From IMG/VR virus record IMGVR_UViG_3300038802_000018, positions 1 to 40,603 of that record: a DNA stretch of 40,603 nucleotides; one strand, given 5' to 3'. The notes under the pieces were generated by a model. That model had not been told where the DNA came from. It was given only the letters and a program-made list of their open reading frames with translations, and searched no databases. This document shows positions 106 to 40,276 of the stretch, piece by piece (position 1 is the stretch's first letter; each line of letters starts with the position of its first letter). The stretch is from a virus. The position numbers and the translations under genes were made by a program.

Positions 106-291
106 CTAAACGATGTTGTACTTACGTTGAAAGACTTCTTCCCTGTCGATATCAACGTCATCGCTGGCTTCAAATAATAGGCGAGCTGAAGAGCGTCTCG
201 CTTCGGTCAACTTCACGAGGCAGATAATCTCGCCGTCTTTGTGAATGACAACGTTCTCGTCTTCCTTGCGATGTAGCACCAGTCTGCTCAT
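106..291 (-). CDS. csrA: CsrA/RsmA-family RNA-binding regulator
   Basis: This 61-residue protein has the length and pattern of CsrA. The N-terminal strand LVLHRKEDENVVI matches the family pattern (L-LTR-GE-I-I), and the C-terminus DVDIDREEVFQR matches the family D-V--HREEIY-R. R50 is the equivalent of the RNA-contacting Arg44 of bacterial CsrA. CsrA dimers bind GGA motifs in RNA hairpin loops and usually block ribosome binding. The middle strands (residues 20-40) are more diverged and richer in Arg than in host proteins. The ATG overlaps the stop of the DNA polymerase gene (ATGA), so the two are translationally coupled. A phage copy could reset host carbon metabolism or regulate phage messages; that part is inference. 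Confidence 0.88.
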   Translation of the reverse strand: MSRLVLHRKEDENVVIHKDGEIICLVKLTEARRSSARLLFEASDDVDIDREEVFQRKYNIV

Positions 292-4603: not shown

Positions 4604-5614
4604 TTAGATAAGTACGTTGGCGTTGTCTTGCGTCCACTTCTGGAACGCTGCTGATTTGACCAAGTCGCGGTCTTTTGCGAGTGAGTCACGGACAAGAACA
4701 ACCTGATACTCAGAGGGCATACGTTTTGCGTAAGCCATGATGTCTTTGAAGTTGTTGTCGTCAGCTCGGGCAGCAAGTGCACCAGATACAGCAAACAAAA
4801 TTGACGGATCGTCAGGGACGCTTGCTGAATGTGGTGATGCCAATAGCTTTTCAAGGTCAGGCATCTTGTCGGCCGTTTGCTTGAACGCAATGAACTCACC
4901 AGCTGGTCCATCGCCAATGATTGAAGCCACACCATAGAACTCGTCGTCAGGTGTGCCGCCCATAAAAGGTAACTTACGGTCAACCATTTCCCAGGCACGC
5001 GGTGTCGGGAATGCATTCTCACGAGAGTCGAGTGAATGCAAAAGTGTCGGCCGGTAACGCAGAAATGAAATAATAGTGGGACTAATATTCCTTTGCATAG
5101 CCCAAGCAGCCCAGTCATCGATGTTGGCCTCGATTTCATAGTGAGCGAAACGGTTCTTCACTGGTGTTGGCATCTCGTGTACAGCTGCACGATCAATGCT
5201 TCGGTTGCCCGCAGCAATGATTGCTGTGCCGGCAGGCAGTGTGTATGTACCAATCTTCTTGTCGAGGATTAGTTGAAGCAGTGCATTCTGTGTAGCTTTA
5301 GGTGCATTGGGCAACTCGTCGACGAGCAGCACGACATTACCTGAGTATGTGGATTCAGGATAATCTTCGGGGACACCGTACCTGGTCTTGTATGTACCGT
5401 CGTCTTGCTCGACAACTTTGAGTCCGCCGCGTACGTCGACTGGGTCAAACAAGTTGGCCCGCAGCTCGAATAGTTTGGCGTTCAAGTCCTCTGCAATCTG
5501 ATAAGCAATCTGGGACTTACCAATACCCGGTGGTCCCCATACCATGGTTGGAATGTTTGCACGTGCGTTGGCACGCAGTTCATTGGATAGTTGTGATGGT
5601 CGAATTGTGCGCAT
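4604..5614 (-). CDS. MoxR-family AAA+ ATPase
   Basis: 336 residues. Walker A is GPPGIGKS at 27-34, Walker B LLVDELPNA with D99-E100, and a sensor-1-like segment is IIAAGNRSIDRA. The region after Walker A carries the MoxR-type substrate loop (DPVDVRGGLKV). MoxR ATPases act as chaperones that insert cofactors or change the shape of partner proteins, and they typically work with vWA-domain proteins such as the one at 2771-3892. The gene begins after a 14-base gap from the 5629-6159 gene and is the first of the three-gene cluster. Confidence 0.92.
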   Translation of the reverse strand: MRTIRPSQLSNELRANARANIPTMVWGPPGIGKSQIAYQIAEDLNAKLFELRANLFDPVDVRGGLKVVEQDDGTYKTRYGVPEDYPESTYSGNVVLLVDELPNAPKATQNALLQLILDKKIGTYTLPAGTAIIAAGNRSIDRAAVHEMPTPVKNRFAHYEIEANIDDWAAWAMQRNISPTIISFLRYRPTLLHSLDSRENAFPTPRAWEMVDRKLPFMGGTPDDEFYGVASIIGDGPAGEFIAFKQTADKMPDLEKLLASPHSASVPDDPSILFAVSGALAARADDNNFKDIMAYAKRMPSEYQVVLVRDSLAKDRDLVKSAAFQKWTQDNANVLI

Positions 5615-9855: not shown

Positions 9856-9920
9856 TTTTCTCCCTTCATTAGTGACACTAATAATTGCCATCACAGCGAG
9901 CTGCGGAGCAGCGAGCTTCA
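9856..9920 (-). repeat. Repeated gene leader, copy A
   Basis: Read leftward it holds GCTCGCTG (twice), GATGGCA, the palindrome ATTAGTGTCACTAAT (9882-9868), then the ribosome site and ATG at 9853. The order CGCTCGCTG, ATGGCA, TTAGTG-like, GTTAACA-like, GGAGG, ATG is repeated at 10403-10470, 11352-11428 and 11929-12001. Confidence 0.55.
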
Positions 9921-12677: not shown

Positions 12678-12679
12678 GT

Positions 12680-12694
12680 ATTAGTTCGACTAAT
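12680..12694. repeat. Palindrome copy 4 (ATTAGT-TCG-ACTAAT)
   Basis: Perfect 6-bp inverted repeat filling the 26-base gap between the HNH gene and the next gene. Confidence 0.75.
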
Positions 12695-12703
12695 AATTAT
12701 GAA

Positions 12704-13530: not shown

Positions 13531-15084
13531 GTGGCTGATATGCAGGACGCCATGCCGGACCCTGACCAGCCCACGCCCCAAGAAGTTGAACAACGGACCA
13601 CGGCCGAAGAACTAGCGAAACAGGAGCTTGCATCACGGTTCCTGACTCGTCGTCGGTTGTTACCGTTCATCGAGCGAAACAATCCTGACTATATGGCGGG
13701 ATGGGTACATAAAGACATATGCCAACGGCTCGAGAAGTTCAGTGAGGCTGTCGTAAATAAAGAAAGCCCTCGGCTGATTTTGCAGATGCCGCCCCGACTA
13801 GGTAAATCGACAATTGCCAGTGTGGGCTTTCCCGCTTGGCACTTGGGTCGTAATCCACAACATGAGTTCATCAGCTGTTCGTACTCTGGAGCGTTGGCCA
13901 TGACCTTCAGCCGTAAAGTACGGCAGACGCTCCGTGAACCGTCGTTCAAGACTACATTCAAAACACGCCTGGATCCTGACTCGCAGTCAGCTGAAGCCTG
14001 GCTAACGTCTGCTGGTGGTGGCTATGTCGCCGCTGGTGTTGGTGGTGGTATCACCGGTAAAGGTGCACATGTATTAGTGATTGACGACCCTGTTAAAAAC
14101 CGCGAGGACGCAGAGTCGCAAAATAACCGTGAGAGCACTTGGGACTGGTACACCTCCACCGCGTATACACGTCTCGCACCCGGCGGAGGGATTCTTGTAA
14201 TCATGACCCGCTGGCACGACGACGATTTGGTTGGCCGACTTTTGAAGAACATGTCTGAAGGTGGCGACGAATGGGAAGTTGTGAAATACCCCGCTATCGC
14301 GGAAGAGGACGAAGAGTTTCGTCGCCAAGGGGAAGCACTTCATCCAGAGCGATATGATCTCGATGCACTGGAGCGTATACAACGAGCCGTGGGCCCTAGA
14401 GATTGGTCCGCGTTGTATCAGCAGAATCCAGTTGCAGATGACGGCGATTACTTTACAAGGGATATGATTCAGTACTACGACAGAGAGGATATCGATCAAG
14501 ATCGACTGCGTTATTACTGTGCATGGGACTTAGCCATAGGAAAGCGAGATAGAAATGACTACTCAGTTGGTATGGTGGTTGGTATTGACGAGTACGATAA
14601 TCTATTCGTTGTCGATGTCATCCGCGGTCGGTTCGACGGTTTTGAGCTTGTCGAACGGATTTTAGACTGTTATGAATTATGGAGGCCCTCGATTATTGGA
14701 ATCGAAAAGGGCCACATCGAGATGGCGCTTGGCCCGTTCCTAGAAAAGCGAACGCGCGAGCGAGGTCTCAATGAGGCTTACTTCAAGGATTTGAAAGTAG
14801 GTCGCCGCGATAAGGAAGCTCGTGCTCGAGCTATTCAAGGTCGTATGCAGCAGGGAATGGTGTTCTTGCCGCGTAACGAAGTATTTACTGGCCCGTTGGT
14901 GGCAGAGCTTTTGCGTTTCCCCAATGGTGTCCACGATGACCAAGTTGATGCGTTGGCATGGATTGGATTGATGATGACGGAGTTTTCTACATTCCACGAA
15001 CGTATTGTTGAGCCGCCAAGTTGGAGAGACAAACTCCGCTATCTTGGCAAAGAAGTGAAAATTAAGTCAGCGATGAGTGCGTGA
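13531..15084 (+). CDS. Terminase large subunit (packaging ATPase-nuclease)
   Basis: 517 residues from a GTG at 13531; an ATG follows at 13540. Walker A is PPRLGKST at 87-94, Walker B VLVIDDPVKN, and coupling segment MTRWHDDDL. The nuclease domain has CAWDLAIGKRDRNDYS (first catalytic Asp), IGIEKG and the late HDDQVDALAW. It translocates DNA into the prohead and cuts it. The frame is open upstream of the GTG and encodes another two-knuckle zinc ribbon (ECRRC ... CAYC), so the true start is probably upstream, perhaps CTG at 13438, which has GGAG 7 bases before it. Confidence 0.95.
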   Translation: MADMQDAMPDPDQPTPQEVEQRTTAEELAKQELASRFLTRRRLLPFIERNNPDYMAGWVHKDICQRLEKFSEAVVNKESPRLILQMPPRLGKSTIASVGFPAWHLGRNPQHEFISCSYSGALAMTFSRKVRQTLREPSFKTTFKTRLDPDSQSAEAWLTSAGGGYVAAGVGGGITGKGAHVLVIDDPVKNREDAESQNNRESTWDWYTSTAYTRLAPGGGILVIMTRWHDDDLVGRLLKNMSEGGDEWEVVKYPAIAEEDEEFRRQGEALHPERYDLDALERIQRAVGPRDWSALYQQNPVADDGDYFTRDMIQYYDREDIDQDRLRYYCAWDLAIGKRDRNDYSVGMVVGIDEYDNLFVVDVIRGRFDGFELVERILDCYELWRPSIIGIEKGHIEMALGPFLEKRTRERGLNEAYFKDLKVGRRDKEARARAIQGRMQQGMVFLPRNEVFTGPLVAELLRFPNGVHDDQVDALAWIGLMMTEFSTFHERIVEPPSWRDKLRYLGKEVKIKSAMSA

Positions 15085-15085
15085 T

Positions 15086-17200
15086 ATGGCAACACATAGT
15101 AAGAAGCCCAGACTATCCCCCGGTGAAGAAGATAAATTAGCGCACGATCAGTGGGAACGATACACCCGAGCCCGAGATCATGGTCACATTGACTATATTG
15201 ATATGGCTAAGAAGTGCGACGCTTTCTATCAGGGCGAACAATGGGATGCTATGGATGTTGCCAATCTTGATGCAGAAGGCCGCCCCGCCCTCACGATTAA
15301 TACCATTCTACCTACTGTAAATACTGTTCTTGGCGAGCAGTCCAACCGACGTGCAGATATAAAGTTTAAACCTCGTCGTGGTGGGTCAGAAGATGTTGCG
15401 CATACCCTAACAAAGTTGTACATGCAGATTGCAGATAACAATAAGCTCGATTGGGTTGAGCAGCAGGTTTTTTCCGACGGTTTGATTATGGATGGCCGTG
15501 GATACTTCGATGCAAGAATGGATTTCAGCGATCACGTAGAAGGCGAAGTGCGGATCAGAGCCCTCGACCCACTAGACGTTGTTATTGACCCTGACGCCAA
15601 GGACTACGACCCCAAGACGTGGAACGAGTTCTTCTATACTCGCTGGATGACGCTCGATGACATCGAGGAAATGTACGGACAAGAACAAGCGGACCGTCTT
15701 CGGTTTATTGCCGAGAACGGTAACAGCTTCGGTCGGGATTCTGTCGAATACAGTGAAACACGCTACGGCGACCTTGATGAGTCTGATGATTATCTGGGCA
15801 CCGCCATTCCTGGAGAAGATGAATATCGTACTGTCAAGGCCTTACGTGTCATTGAGCGCCAGCATCGTAAAATCACTCGCGTCGATTGTTTTGTAGACCC
15901 AAACACCGGCGACCAACGCGACGTACCCGAGGCGTGGTCTGACCGTAAGACAAAGAAGTTCGCCAAAGACTACGGCCTGAACGTTATTTCAAAAACTAAA
16001 AAGAAAGTTCGTTGGACTGTTACTTGCGATAAGGTCGTACTCCATGACGATTGGTCACCTTACGCAGACTTTACTATTGTCCCGTTCTTCGCCTATTTCC
16101 GGCGCGGACGCCCGTTCGGTATGGTGCGCAACCTGCTCTCCCCTCAAGAGCAACTGAACAAAATCGCCTCTCAAGAGCTGCACATTGTAAACACCACCGC
16201 TAACAGTGGTTGGGTCGTCGAGTCTGGTTCACTGACGAATATGCAGGCTGAAGATTTAGAGGAACACGGGGCAGAGACCGGTTTGGTGCTGGAGTACAAT
16301 CGTGGATCATCTCCTCCCTCCAAGATCCAACCTAACCAGATACCAACCGGTCTCGACCGTATTAGTCAGAAAGCCGCTGCGAACATCAAAGCTATATCGG
16401 GTATTAACGATTCCATGCTCGGCACGGACGGCGCCGAGGTCTCAGGCATAGCGATTCAGGCTAAACAGAATCGTGGCGTGATTATGATTCAAGTTCCGCT
16501 AGACAACCTGCGGAAGACCCGACAGTACCTAGCCGAGAAAATCCTAAATCTTATCCAAACGTTTTACACCGAGGAAAGAATTATTAGAATTACTAATGAT
16601 GACGACCCGATGGAGCCCCGCGAGGAGATGATTATTAACGAAATGACGGCTTCTGGTGAAATTATCAATGATTTGACTATTGGTGAGTACGATGTGGTGG
16701 TTGCTACGCAGCCTGCACGTGATTCATTTGATGAAGTTCAGTTTGCAGAAGCTCTAGCACTTCGCCAGGCCGGTGTTGCTGTACCAGATGATGCGATTGT
16801 TCAGTACTCGCATCTCGCCAAGAAAGCAGAATTGGCCGCTAGACTTCGTCAAGACCCGTCTGAAGAGCAGATGCAAATCATGCAGATGCAGCAACAGCTC
16901 GCTATGCAAGAAGCTCAGCTACAAGTTGCCAAACTTGAGGCTGAAATACGCAAACTTCAATCTGACGCAGCCGTAAATCTCGCTAAAACACAGGATATCG
17001 CGGACGTTCAGCCGCAGTTGAAAGTGGCAGAGCTACAGCAAGAGCTGCAAATGGCGCAAGAAAACCTGCAATTGCGGCGTGAACTTGCAAATCTAACGAG
17101 TAGAACTCGACAAACACAGGCTCAAACAACCGCAGCGGCAAAATTGGCCACCACTGCGATGAACACAGCAGCTAAAAACGGCCAAAACACGCAAAATTAG
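15086..17200 (+). CDS. Portal protein (P22-like)
   Basis: 704 residues from the ATG at 15086, 1 base after the terminase stop. It shows the P22-type portal pattern: N-terminal AHDQWERYTRARDHGHIDYIDM, YQGEQWDAMDVANLDAEGRPALTINTI, LDPLDVVIDPDAKDYDP, and FGMVRNLLSPQEQLNKIASQEL. The C-terminal 130 residues are a long Gln/Leu coiled coil (MQMQQQLAMQEAQLQVAKLE), which corresponds to the barrel of P22-like portals. The dodecamer forms the DNA entry channel at one capsid vertex. Confidence 0.93.
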   Translation: MATHSKKPRLSPGEEDKLAHDQWERYTRARDHGHIDYIDMAKKCDAFYQGEQWDAMDVANLDAEGRPALTINTILPTVNTVLGEQSNRRADIKFKPRRGGSEDVAHTLTKLYMQIADNNKLDWVEQQVFSDGLIMDGRGYFDARMDFSDHVEGEVRIRALDPLDVVIDPDAKDYDPKTWNEFFYTRWMTLDDIEEMYGQEQADRLRFIAENGNSFGRDSVEYSETRYGDLDESDDYLGTAIPGEDEYRTVKALRVIERQHRKITRVDCFVDPNTGDQRDVPEAWSDRKTKKFAKDYGLNVISKTKKKVRWTVTCDKVVLHDDWSPYADFTIVPFFAYFRRGRPFGMVRNLLSPQEQLNKIASQELHIVNTTANSGWVVESGSLTNMQAEDLEEHGAETGLVLEYNRGSSPPSKIQPNQIPTGLDRISQKAAANIKAISGINDSMLGTDGAEVSGIAIQAKQNRGVIMIQVPLDNLRKTRQYLAEKILNLIQTFYTEERIIRITNDDDPMEPREEMIINEMTASGEIINDLTIGEYDVVVATQPARDSFDEVQFAEALALRQAGVAVPDDAIVQYSHLAKKAELAARLRQDPSEEQMQIMQMQQQLAMQEAQLQVAKLEAEIRKLQSDAAVNLAKTQDIADVQPQLKVAELQQELQMAQENLQLRRELANLTSRTRQTQAQTTAAAKLATTAMNTAAKNGQNTQN

Positions 17201-17209
17201 GAGTGCGTA

Positions 17210-18265
17210 ATGAGTGAAGACATGGAAAAACAGGAAGCGACCGAGGAAAAAGCGCTTACTTTTGACGTTATGCCGGGGGCAGAGCCTCTGGAAGCACCAG
17301 AAAATGTAGATTTGAGTTTCCCAGCGCCTGAGCCGGAGTCGGAAAAAGCTGAAGAATCGGAAGAAACCGAAGAAACATCCGCCGAATCGGAAGAAGTAGA
17401 AGAAACTGCAGACGCCGAACCTGAAACAGACGGCGATGACGACGATGATACTGAACCTGATGAGGGTACACCCGAAGAGGAGCCAGAATCGCAGGAAGAA
17501 ACTGAGGAAGAGCTGCCGCTTGCGGCTGAAAAAGCGGAACCAGAGGCGAAAAGCCCAATGGTGCCCAAGTCTCGCCTCGATGAAGTGCTAGCTAAACAGA
17601 AAGCACTGCAAAAACAGGTGGAAGAAATGAAGGCAGCAGCCGAAAAACCCGCCGAAGCACCAGAGGAGTACGATTTTGATGCCAAAGAAATCGAATACCA
17701 ACAACTCGTTCTCGACGGAGAAGCTGAAAAAGCTGTCGCGCTTCGTAAAGAAATACGTGGAGCTGAGAAAGCACAGATTGAGTGGGAAATGGAGCAGAAG
17801 ATGGGACAGACTGTCCAGCAATCTGCCCAAGCTACAGCTTTGCAACAGGCTGCAGCAGAAATGGAAGCAGCTTACCCAGTATTTGATCAGAACTCTCCAG
17901 ACTTTAACCAAGAGTACACAGATGAAGTTGTCGAACTTCGCGACGCGTTCATTATTAAAGGTTATGACGCCGTTGACGCTTTGGGTCGAGCAGTTAAGTA
18001 CGTGGTTAAGGACCGTAATCTCGACGCTGCAGGGGAAGCTGAACAGAAACCAGCCTTAGCCGCGGCATCGCCAGAACAATCGGCTAAAAAGAAAGCCAAT
18101 GTAGCTAAGAAACTGAAAGCAGCGGAATCACAGCCACCTGAATTGGAAGGTGAAGGCTCATCTTCGCGCGGCGAGAACGTAGTCGACTTTACCGGAATGT
18201 CAGAAGAAGAGTTTGATGCTCTTCCTGAGGCTACTCTTCGTAGACTGAGAGGAGACATCGTCTGA
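17210..18265 (+). CDS. Acidic scaffold-like protein
   Basis: 351 residues. The first 110 residues are almost entirely Glu, Asp, Ser, Pro and Thr (TDGDDDDDTEPDEG), and therefore disordered. Residues 120-240 form a coiled coil (LDEVLAKQKALQKQVEEM), then a helical part (FIIKGYDAVDALGRAVKYVV) and a short C-terminal helix-turn-helix-like end (MSEEEFDALPEATLRRLRGDIV), the usual coat-binding end of scaffolds. Position between portal and capsid genes fits a scaffolding protein. A GAG-rich ribosome site (TAGGAGTGCGTA) precedes the ATG. Confidence 0.85.
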   Translation: MSEDMEKQEATEEKALTFDVMPGAEPLEAPENVDLSFPAPEPESEKAEESEETEETSAESEEVEETADAEPETDGDDDDDTEPDEGTPEEEPESQEETEEELPLAAEKAEPEAKSPMVPKSRLDEVLAKQKALQKQVEEMKAAAEKPAEAPEEYDFDAKEIEYQQLVLDGEAEKAVALRKEIRGAEKAQIEWEMEQKMGQTVQQSAQATALQQAAAEMEAAYPVFDQNSPDFNQEYTDEVVELRDAFIIKGYDAVDALGRAVKYVVKDRNLDAAGEAEQKPALAAASPEQSAKKKANVAKKLKAAESQPPELEGEGSSSRGENVVDFTGMSEEEFDALPEATLRRLRGDIV

Positions 18266-18287
18266 TTCTTATTGCTTGCGGGAATTT

Positions 18288-18302
18288 ATTAGTTTAACTA
18301 AT
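18288..18302. repeat. Palindrome copy 5 (ATTAGT-TTA-ACTAAT)
   Basis: Perfect 6-bp inverted repeat at the start of the 264-base gap before the capsid gene. It is followed by a TATAATATTATC stretch that resembles a -10 box, so a late promoter may sit here. Confidence 0.75.
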
Positions 18303-18320
18303 ATAATATTATCTTCGCTT

Positions 18321-18512
18321 ACCTGTGCGATATCAGGTCGTGGTCGATCACGATAAAAATCGTTCTCGCCCGTCGGGGCGTAAAACACGCCGAGTTCGTA
18401 ACTCGCTAAATATACGCCACACGTCTCCTCACGATACGAGGTACACGGGCATGTCTGCCCATCAACAAGGCGCGGTGATTAGGAATGACCCTAATCATTA
18501 TGTGAAACACAT
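18321..18512 (+). ncRNA. Run of ten small hairpins in the capsid-gene leader
   Basis: Between palindrome copy 5 and the capsid ATG I can pair ten short hairpins: ACCTG/CAGGT (18321), CGTG/CACG (18339), ACGAT/ATCGT (18350), CGCCC/GGGCG (18367), GGCGT/ACGCC (18377), CGAGTT/AACTCG (18391), CCTC/GAGG (18427), GGGCA/TGCCC (18447), TGATTAGG/CCTAATCA (18476), ATGTG/CACAT (18500). Loops are 3-8 bases. A few neighbours share bases and would be alternatives. A weak reading frame from a GTG at 18325 crosses this region, but it lacks a ribosome site and runs into the capsid start. The run most likely shapes the capsid message. Confidence 0.55.
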
Positions 18513-18529
18513 CTTTATTGGAGCTTAAA

Positions 18530-19678
18530 ATGGCTACTACTAACTATGGAACGCTGACTGGTGATCAGCTTCAGGTGTGGTCACGCGACTTCTGGCGTGT
18601 GGCCCGCAACATGTCGTTCATTAACCAGTTCGCTGGTTCTGGACAAAACGCTATGGTTCAGCGTGTAACAGAGCTGACCAAAAGCAACAAAGGTACAAAA
18701 GCTAACATTACATTGCTTGCAGATATGACTGGCGACGGTATTACCGGCGACAACACTCTGGAAGGTAATGAAGAAGCACTGCGTGCCTTCGACATCACAA
18801 TCGAGCTGGACCAGCTGCGCTTTGCTAACCGCATCGCCGGACGCATGGCCGACCAGAAAACGGTTGTGAACTTCCGTGAGCAATCACGTGACGCCCTGGC
18901 ATATGCAATGGCTGACCGTATTGACCAGCTGGCGTTCCTGACGCTTGCCGGTGTTGCTTACACCAACAAAAACAACGGCGCACTCCGTCCAGTCTCTTCT
19001 TCAGCTGGCCATGAGTTGGTTGACCTTGAGTTTGCTTCTGACGTATCAGCACCGACCACCAACCGCCACCGTCGTTGGGACGCAACCAACGGTCTGGTAG
19101 CTGGTGATACGACTGCCGTCGCCGCTGCTGACACAATCAGCTACGAGTGCATCGTGAACCTCAAAGCCTATGCTAAAGACCAGTACATCCGTGGTATCCG
19201 CGGTGCCGCTAACGACGAGATGTTCCATCTCTTCGTGACTCCGCAGCAAATGGCTGACCTGAAACTTGACTCTGACTTCCTGGCTAACGTCCGGAACGCA
19301 GGTGTTCGCGGTAACGCCAACAGCCTGTTCGCCGGTTCGTCCAGCCTGATGGTTGACGGTGTCATGGTTCATGAGTTCCGTCACGTGTTCAACACCTCGG
19401 GTGCTACCGCCGGTACATCCACTAATGCTGGCGCCGCTGGCTACAAATGGGGTGCTAACGCTGATGTGAATGGTGCCCGTGCACTGTTCTGCGGCGCTCA
19501 AGCCTTGGCCATGGCTGACATCGGTCTGCCGGAAATCGTAGAAGATACCTTCGACTACGAAAACCAGGCTGGTATCTCCGTCGGTAAAATCTTCGGTCTT
19601 CGTAAGCCGAAGTACAACACTGACGTAACGTCGACCACCGAAGACTTCGGTGTGATCGCACTCGATACCGCTCAGTAA
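18530..19678 (+). CDS. Major capsid protein (N4-gp56 family)
   Basis: 382 residues from the ATG at 18530, with TTGGAG 6 bases upstream. The pattern is that of the N4-gp56 capsid family: early LQVWSRDFWRVARNMSFINQF, ANITLLADMTGDGITGDNTLEGNEEAL, FDITIELDQLRFANRIAGRMADQKTVVNFRE, and a C-terminal GRALFCGAQALAMAD-like stretch followed by EDTFDYENQAGISVGKIFG. It has the HK97-type fold in this family. The isolated leader with hairpins and the strong hairpin after the stop mark it as a separately controlled, highly expressed gene. Confidence 0.93.
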   Translation: MATTNYGTLTGDQLQVWSRDFWRVARNMSFINQFAGSGQNAMVQRVTELTKSNKGTKANITLLADMTGDGITGDNTLEGNEEALRAFDITIELDQLRFANRIAGRMADQKTVVNFREQSRDALAYAMADRIDQLAFLTLAGVAYTNKNNGALRPVSSSAGHELVDLEFASDVSAPTTNRHRRWDATNGLVAGDTTAVAAADTISYECIVNLKAYAKDQYIRGIRGAANDEMFHLFVTPQQMADLKLDSDFLANVRNAGVRGNANSLFAGSSSLMVDGVMVHEFRHVFNTSGATAGTSTNAGAAGYKWGANADVNGARALFCGAQALAMADIGLPEIVEDTFDYENQAGISVGKIFGLRKPKYNTDVTSTTEDFGVIALDTAQ

Positions 19679-19686
19679 GTATAAGT

Positions 19687-19706
19687 CCCCCCTCTTCGGA
19701 GGGGGG
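19687..19706 (+). terminator. Strong hairpin after the capsid gene
   Basis: CCCCCCTC, TTCG tetraloop, GAGGGGGG: an 8-bp stem 8 bases past the capsid stop. What follows is CATCTTCTATCTT, pyrimidine-rich but not a clean T run, so partial termination or mRNA end protection is likely; tail genes must still be reached. Confidence 0.7.
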
Positions 19707-24993: not shown

Positions 24994-32259
<7,266 letters not shown>

Positions 32260-32260
32260 T

Positions 32261-32275
32261 ATTAGTGGAGCTAAT
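32261..32275 (+). promoter_or_regulatory. Palindrome copy 6 with GGA loop over the ribosome site
   Basis: ATTAGT-GGA-GCTAAT is one mismatch (a G-U pair in RNA) from perfect. It differs from other copies in that the loop is GGA and the loop plus next base form the Shine-Dalgarno GGAG, 2 bases after the giant gene's stop and 6 bases before the next ATG. A GGA in a short hairpin loop over a ribosome site is the known target form of CsrA, and this phage encodes a CsrA homologue. Confidence 0.6.
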
Positions 32276-34945: not shown

Positions 34946-34951
34946 ATTTAA

Positions 34952-34966
34952 ATTAGCTACGCTAAT
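34952..34966. repeat. Palindrome copy 7 (ATTAGC-TAC-GCTAAT)
   Basis: Perfect 6-bp inverted repeat in the 35-base gap between two tail genes, 4 bases before the GGAGG ribosome site of the next gene. Confidence 0.75.
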
Positions 34967-40234: not shown

Positions 40235-40248
40235 CTTTGGCTTGTTGT

Positions 40249-40263
40249 ATTAGCTGAACTAAT
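40249..40263. repeat. Palindrome copy 8 (ATTAGC-TGA-ACTAAT)
   Basis: 5 of 6 arm pairs match (C against A at the inner pair). It lies in the 42-base gap between the small membrane protein and the XhlA-like gene. Confidence 0.65.
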
Positions 40264-40276
40264 ATAGGTTGGGTTC

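Follow-up and report, generated by a model that had tools for sequence, protein, structure and literature searches.

A conserved structured RNA in the major capsid gene leader of a marine phage clade

The capsid locus and its transcription signals

The window, by which we mean the whole stretch of DNA that was analyzed, is a 40,603-base virus record (IMGVR_UViG_3300038802_000018) from a marine podovirus-like phage. Terminase and portal genes precede a scaffold-like acidic open reading frame (ORF) without a PHROG match, and the gene for the major capsid protein (MCP) follows, with head and tail genes after it. The 264-nt gap that the first-pass annotation had reported in front of the capsid gene is borne out, running from the end of the scaffold-like ORF (18265) to the MCP ATG (18530), and it holds a structured leader. 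The features of the locus, together with a palindrome found across the window, are as follows:

from 13531, terminase gene
15077-17200, portal gene
17210-18265, scaffold-like acidic ORF between the portal and MCP genes
18276-18304, plus strand, predicted MCP promoter (TTGCGG, 17 nt, TAATAT), start expected at about 18311
18313-18476, plus strand, structured leader RNA (covariance model R1, 129 bits in the window)
18520-18523, plus strand, Shine-Dalgarno sequence GGAG, outside the structure
18530-19678, plus strand, MCP gene, ATG at 18530 (phrog_334 major head protein, E 1.9e-85)
19687-19706, plus strand, terminator-like hairpin directly 3' of the MCP gene (8 bp, GC rich, UUCG)
2378-2396, 5070-5088, 9868-9884, and 12678-12696, ATTAG-N5-CTAAT sites
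18286-18304 (core, 18288-18302), 32259-32275, 34950-34966, and 40247-40265, ATTAG-N5-CTAAT sites

Of 49 distinct upstream regions, 35 contain the promoter form TTG-N20-TAATAT, which is seen in 0.3% of shuffles, and 48 contain a looser form (2.0% of shuffles). A generic sigma-70 scan did not list the site at 18276-18304, and generic promoter scores in the relatives were scarcely above those of shuffles (7.86 versus 7.37). Judging from the start position predicted by the promoter sequence, the transcript should begin within a few bases of the structured element. Further TTG-N20-TAATAT sites lie in the window at 2378 and 40237, where an ATG follows the -10 sequence by only 22 and 11 nt, respectively, indicating that the long leader is special to the MCP gene.

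The palindrome ATTAG-N5-CTAAT gave 13 strand matches with at most two mismatches, against 0.25 expected, at eight sites in the window, three of which overlap a TTG-N20-TAATAT promoter-like sequence. It resembles a phage-wide motif of operators or promoters. The copy at 18288-18302 overlaps the -10 sequence of the MCP promoter, also precedes the element in relatives, and is likely an operator. At the 3' end of the MCP gene, a GC-rich hairpin similar to that of the window was present in 37 of 46 distinct relatives, 33 of the 46 having at least four T residues in eight. With a promoter and a terminator-like hairpin of its own, the capsid mRNA is probably largely monocistronic. Separately, another palindrome-like sequence, TATTAG-CTAAT, follows the gene for a CsrA homologue near the start of the window (106-291, minus strand).

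Conservation and fold of the leader RNA

A capsid-protein scan of IMG/VR returned at least 595 relatives, the best 80 of which (81 to 95% identical) were kept; in most of these 80, where measurable, the gap upstream of the MCP gene is about 250 to 270 nt. A first alignment of the 270 nt upstream of the MCP gene, from which loci with shorter upstream sequence were omitted, used 75 of 81 sequences (52 distinct) and revealed a conserved block with evident paired changes. A DNA pattern taken from the 3' part of the element matched at least 120 viral contigs and a single contig among 84,980 genomes, belonging to the MAG Gammaproteobacteria bacterium TMED226. The MCP start lies 46 to 66 nt (median, 55) after the pattern in 115 of the 121 contigs listed, and the remaining six end 18 to 78 nt after the pattern, before any MCP start. 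Covariance model R1, which was built from 39 MAFFT-aligned sequences using nested stems only and from which pseudoknot pairs were absent, found the element in 82 of 82 tested clade sources (the window, the MAG contig, and 80 pattern contigs, four of the 82 being cut by contig ends). Exactly one copy was found in each of 97 loci picked by dissimilarity from 192 element sequences. R1 found none in five of five named relatives (Pseudomonas CRPAP1904, Aeromonas phiA008, Acidovorax AP1, MW202615, and Paracoccus KLEP18-1), and a viral scan with the phiA008 capsid gave no match.

In MW202615 (L085, approximately 1500 to 2530), a large AT-rich gap precedes the podovirus capsid gene, with a PacI restriction endonuclease gene annotated upstream; the gap may contain an intron or homing element. 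In Paracoccus phage KLEP18-1 (L086, 2287 to 2494), the leader has a TTGACA-17-CATAAT promoter-like sequence followed by GCC-CGCGCA-GGCGTTAACGCGC, a stretch that resembles one unit of the type found in the window.

The proposal of the first-pass annotation that the capsid leader contains a structured RNA is confirmed, since all 97 of the chosen loci have the stems and compensatory changes occur in them, and we are highly confident that 18313-18476 is a conserved structured RNA in the MCP 5' leader. Folding energy by itself is only moderate evidence for this. In the comparison with dinucleotide shuffles that had been suggested as a check, 18321-18512 lies beyond most shuffles: its minimum free energy is -60.8 kcal/mol, and 4 of 200 shuffles fold as well (z, -2.35). 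The exact element, 18313-18476, has a weaker z (-1.8 and -1.4 in two runs), and 26 folds of 25 sequences (the window counted twice) gave a mean z of -2.40 (range, -5.03 to -0.54).

Conservation with compensatory changes is decisive. Across 43 proposed pairs and 97 loci, 94.0% of 4167 cells were paired, compared with 84.9% when partners were shuffled and 32 to 44% when they were slid, and the covariation score of the proposed pairs was 0.301 versus 0.123. The nested stems were used to fit the 97-locus alignment, a bias in their favor; the unfitted MAFFT alignment A2 gives the same pairs. When changes were placed on a tree built from the element's own sequence, stem pairs had as many as 16 independent two-sided changes and hardly any breaks; the best H1 and H5 pairs had 10 to 16 independent double changes, with two breaking changes at most. 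Pairs of H1, H2, and H5 came out on top when 12,561 column pairs were ranked by covariation without guidance. In stems and pseudoknots, G-U combinations outnumber A-C combinations 112 to 15, so that what is conserved is the plus-strand RNA, and hairpins at the level of DNA are disfavored. The other check that had been suggested, stem covariation against coding conservation of the frame at 18325, came out on the side of stem covariation in the relatives. We rejected a protein-coding ORF at 18325-18528, its GTG start being kept in 11 of 97 loci and an in-frame stop lying inside the element in 94 of 97.

The fold appears to be a row of H-type pseudoknots followed by one plain hairpin, H7. In each of the six hairpins H1 to H6, loop bases can pair with flanking bases; the pseudoknot partner lies 5' of the stem for H1, H5, and H6 and 3' of the stem, across an A-rich linker, for H2, H3, and H4. 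In the window itself, PK1, PK2, PK4, and PK6 have four perfect pairs each, PK5 has three, and PK3 has two. Downstream of the six-unit row, H7 is succeeded by about 30 nt of open sequence that includes the Shine-Dalgarno sequence. The units are, in order:

18315-18338, plus strand, unit 1: H1 18321-18325/18334-18338; PK1 18315-18318/18327-18330
18339-18362, plus strand, unit 2: H2 18339-18342/18349-18352; PK2 18345-18348/18359-18362
18367-18390, plus strand, unit 3: H3 18367-18371/18376-18380; PK3 18372-18373/18389-18390
18391-18416, plus strand, unit 4: H4 18391-18395/18401-18405; PK4 18397-18400/18413-18416
18422-18441, plus strand, unit 5: H5 18427-18430/18438-18441; PK5 18422-18424/18431-18433
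18447-18471, plus strand, unit 6: H6 18453-18456/18468-18471; PK6 18447-18450/18457-18460
18475-18483 with 18490-18498, plus strand, H7: plain hairpin of variable sequence, nine pairs

The best three pairs of H1 have 10, 10, and 13 independent double changes, and three pairs of H5 have 6, 11, and 16 double events with no breaks. Pair 18341-18350 of H2 is UA in 51 of the 97 loci, GC in 33, and CG in 13, and the outer four pairs of H4 are paired in all 97. Among the pseudoknots, PK1, PK3, and PK6 are supported by covariation, and PK4 is partly supported. The pairing levels of PK3, PK1, and PK6 are reached by just 0.03%, 0.08%, and 0.47%, respectively, of all variable-column pairs; those of the second PK3 pair, the third PK4 pair, and the third PK3 pair are reached by 2.4%, 7.9%, and 13%. 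The outer PK3 pair is paired in 97 of 97 loci (GC 65, AU 18, GU 14), with eight double, ten single, and no breaking events, and PK3 extends further in relatives than the two pairs seen in the window. The inner PK1 pair (n = 97) is U-A in 78, C-G in 15, U-G in 3, and unpaired in 1, and the third PK6 pair is paired in 93 of 97 (AU 68, GU 12, UA 10, GC 3), each with three double events. In a motif reading, the third PK4 pair forms in 87 of 95 loci versus 76.2 when shuffled (maximum, 82 in 1000), with one double and four breaking events; in the PK4 region of alignment A3, the window's own clade is one base out of register.

The third PK2 pair forms in 63 of 97 loci versus 52.4 when shuffled (maximum, 62), and its pairing (CGAU/AUCG) holds only in the window's clade. 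We rejected PK2 as a general pseudoknot because it is unsupported outside that clade and shows six breaking events. PK5 is nearly invariant, with two U-A to U-G changes only; it is a candidate by its likeness to PK1 and not proven by covariation. Under a phylogeny-preserving null, single pseudoknot pairs had E values of 21 to 102, yet they rank 14 to 28 of 12,561. Several certain stem pairs failed as well (E 1.4 to 16), and we therefore judged this null too harsh for single pairs.

The ten hairpins described in the first-pass annotation reduce to seven, H1 to H7, that are conserved; some of the others are pseudoknot strands, and one is confined to close relatives. Thus GGGCATGTCTGCCC at 18447-18460, apparently a base-sharing hairpin, consists of pseudoknot strands compatible with the neighboring stem, and the small ATGTGAAACACAT hairpin near 18500-18512 is seen in the upstream alignment only in the window's close relatives. 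The 8-bp stem placed at 18476-18497 is H7, with one pair more. Of 79 distinct leaders, 76 have an H7 stem of at least 5 bp, but so do 68% of shuffles, and one of at least 7 bp is present in 35 of the 79 versus 18% of shuffles (18 of the 97 were left out as duplicates or cut short); H7 persists in a constant position as a hairpin whose sequence changes. Adjacent hairpins that share bases had been read as independent small hairpins switching between alternative pairings, and single-sequence folding does yield overlapping stems. However, the relatives keep the hairpins and the loop-to-flank pairs of PK1, PK3, and PK6 together, as is expected of pseudoknots that form together rather than switch, and we attach almost no probability to switching.

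Unpaired positions conserved in at least 95% of the 97 elements are mostly adenines in the linkers, which would fit a loop crossing a helix groove. Several loops are strongly conserved in sequence, which suggests that some partner recognizes them specifically.

Searches of known families returned no identity for the element. Rfam 15 gave no matches at gathering score in the window or in five relatives, E-value searches gave a weak lead to GP20-b (RF03003) and otherwise chance-level matches, and ARAGORN found no tRNA or tmRNA genes in the window. The GP20-b model scored 19.8 bits in one relative, L023, against a gathering score of 36.2 (E 0.035, with 206 nt of L023 searched alone), and it had no match in 18260-18540 of the window (E up to 5), in whole loci, or in a KPP25-like leader. 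Membership was rejected because the score is under the 36.2-bit cutoff. A search of open-licence papers on structured phage and capsid leader RNAs and on tandem pseudoknots turned up no description of the element.

Related units in KPP25-like phages

Eighty viral loci with 60 to 100% identity to the KPP25-type capsid protein made up a KPP25-like set. Their leaders differ in sequence from those of the window's clade; with E values up to 5 allowed, R1 matched 3 of 85 test loci, the lowest E being 7e-4. Near-duplicate removal kept 22 of 76 and 59 of 76 leaders, the KPP25-like set being the 59 dissimilar ones. For unit type 1, hairpins with an NCGANA loop were located and the base following an upstream CG was then read for pairing. 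In the 59 KPP25-like leaders, 62 of 78 can pair (shuffled mean, 40.6; maximum, 51 in 10,000), and in the window's clade 39 of 41 can pair (shuffled maximum, 38). In non-leader segments of the same loci, 6 of 18 and 24 of 73 pair, and the hairpins are more than 10 times rarer. Among the KPP25-like NCGANA-loop hairpins, 21 of 99 have no upstream CG, and 9 of the 59 leaders had no NCGANA-loop hairpin.

These counts demonstrate that KPP25-like phages carry unit type 1 before the capsid gene, a kinship at the level of the unit only. The number and order of units differ between the window's clade and the KPP25-like phages, and common descent of the whole element is unproven. As KPP25-like Pseudomonas phages share unit type 1, experiments on it could be done in phages that can be cultured.

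Possible functions and known systems

The roles that the first-pass annotation had put forward, protection of the message or a ribosome stand-by site, remain the best kind of explanation. With moderate confidence, we propose that the leader is a 5'-terminal cap that stabilizes the capsid mRNA and perhaps aids its translation. On this model, the capsid mRNA would start at its own promoter and end at the hairpin after the MCP stop codon. On emerging, the first 160 nt of the RNA would form a compact series of six hairpin units, the loop in most of them pairing with bases just 5' or 3' of the stem and the spanning loops carrying conserved adenines. RNase E acts in 5'-end-dependent decay, and the cap would leave such decay (by RNase E, or by RNase J where present) no free single-stranded start. 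The structure would also prevent the leader from invading the ribosome-binding site, and the outcome would be a long-lived, well-translated mRNA for a protein needed in hundreds of copies per particle. There is precedent in gene 32 of T4, whose mRNA, the most stable of that phage, contains a pseudoknot in its leader (PMC3014915). In a triple-pseudoknot leader, breaking one pseudoknot made mRNA accumulation about twofold slower in E. coli (PMC9458429). The conserved loop sequences suggest specific recognition, for which a mere mechanical cap would have no need.

We consider two other readings unlikely. In one, ribosomal protein S1 and the 30S subunit would dock at the pseudoknots, which would form a stand-by array feeding the open Shine-Dalgarno region. 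The start codon lies about 50 nt beyond the end of the element, a Shine-Dalgarno-like sequence is present in 79 of 79 distinct leaders, and PMC7708055 states that translation of tisB, like the binding of S1 and 30S to its mRNA, requires a 5' H-type pseudoknot and that many pseudoknots bind S1 well. The Shine-Dalgarno sequence looks accessible here, however, so that stand-by would not be required, and PMC9458429 reports that an IGR IRES recruits bacterial ribosomes without need of pseudoknots. The leader may instead be the site at which a regulatory protein paces capsid synthesis, either a phage protein such as the CsrA homologue or, by feedback, the capsid or scaffold protein. The unpaired loop bases are conserved; the window encodes a 61-amino-acid CsrA homologue (106-291, minus strand; match at 124-282, E 1.7e-9, over the cutoff), and CsrA was over the cutoff in 10 of 10 records tested from the window's clade versus 0 of 5 KPP25-like records. 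A CsrA-like gene also precedes the MCP gene in Burkholderia DC1, BcepIL02, Klebsiella LASTA, and Serratia Parlo, with no other same-strand gene between the two. But the elements do not conserve GGA, the core of a CsrA site, and 13 of the 97 lack it altogether; the GGA of PK6 varies to GGG or GGU with its partner changing to match; and R1 (E up to 5) found the element in none of eight more distant named phages with this CsrA-before-MCP context. A CsrA target or sponge RNA was rejected on the lack of conserved GGA cores in hairpin loops. An unannotated pre-MCP stretch of Erwinia phage Stean (L291, approximately 240 to 440) reads like CsrA by eye. The CsrA-like genes before the MCP gene in DC1, LASTA, Parlo, Stean, and BcepIL02 suggest control of the capsid at the level of RNA in those phages.

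Two further readings are improbable. Were the leader an antitermination RNA of the HK022 put type, it would let RNA polymerase pass the post-MCP terminator into the tail genes. The position of the element at the transcript start and the strong terminator-like hairpin after the MCP gene would suit such a role, but the KPP25-like phages have related units and seldom a post-MCP terminator (5 of 59 with at least four T residues), and put is smaller, at about 70 nt with two hairpins only. By itself, put RNA is reported to suppress pausing and termination (PMC9378689). A shade less probable still is that the element acts separately from the capsid message as a small RNA (in packaging, as a decoy, or as a ribozyme). 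It is compact, conserved, present in a single copy per source, and served by its own promoter. Nevertheless, its spacing from the MCP start hardly varies (115 of 115 testable loci), a scan for terminators listed none on the plus strand between it and the MCP gene, and neither ARAGORN nor Rfam identified anything.

More speculatively, and with considerable doubt, the units may be modular pseudoknot "beads" of two mirror types, an RNA architecture for which the sources searched gave no description, in one of which a 5' strand would pair with the hairpin loop and in the other the loop with a 3' strand across an A-rich linker. Their number and order at the 5' ends of capsid mRNAs would be specific to the clade, in the window's marine clade and the KPP25-like phages alike, and they would set the capsid supply as a repeated array on which either S1/30S or an RNA-binding protein of the phage docks. 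The element offers a natural test of the effect of serial pseudoknots on mRNA lifetime and ribosome loading and is a possible high-expression leader for laboratory use.

Several known systems share parts of this architecture. GP20-b, which is linked to phage GP20 genes, is an annotated cis-regulatory RNA, and its printed consensus (a hairpin, UAAAAAA, and a GC able to pair with the loop) has the layout of units 3 and 4, by analogy only; it differs in having 62 positions and two hairpins, compared with six units here. The T7 capsid gene, gene 10, like the MCP gene of the window, has a dedicated promoter and an expression-enhancing leader, but that leader is short and has a simple stem-loop. The dicistrovirus IGR IRES is located before a capsid reading frame. 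It resembles the element, by architecture alone, in having several pseudoknots in a row (a triple pseudoknot, PMC9458429), and it differs in being a ribosome-binding fold of three pseudoknots from a eukaryotic virus. The tisB stand-by site (PMC7708055) is likewise an H-type pseudoknot at the 5' terminus, a long way from the start codon, but a single one, on a bacterial toxin mRNA with a sequestered ribosome-binding site. The T4 gene 32 leader (PMC3014915) belongs to a very stable phage mRNA and has an H-type pseudoknot about 67 nt ahead of the start codon; it is one pseudoknot bound by the encoded single-stranded DNA-binding protein, whereas here a row of units precedes a capsid gene. Phage cis-leader RNAs with pseudoknots are already known, and to these the present element, absent from Rfam 15, adds six pseudoknot-type units lined up ahead of a capsid gene, in a very common marine phage group with at least 595 capsid relatives and at least 120 pattern contigs.
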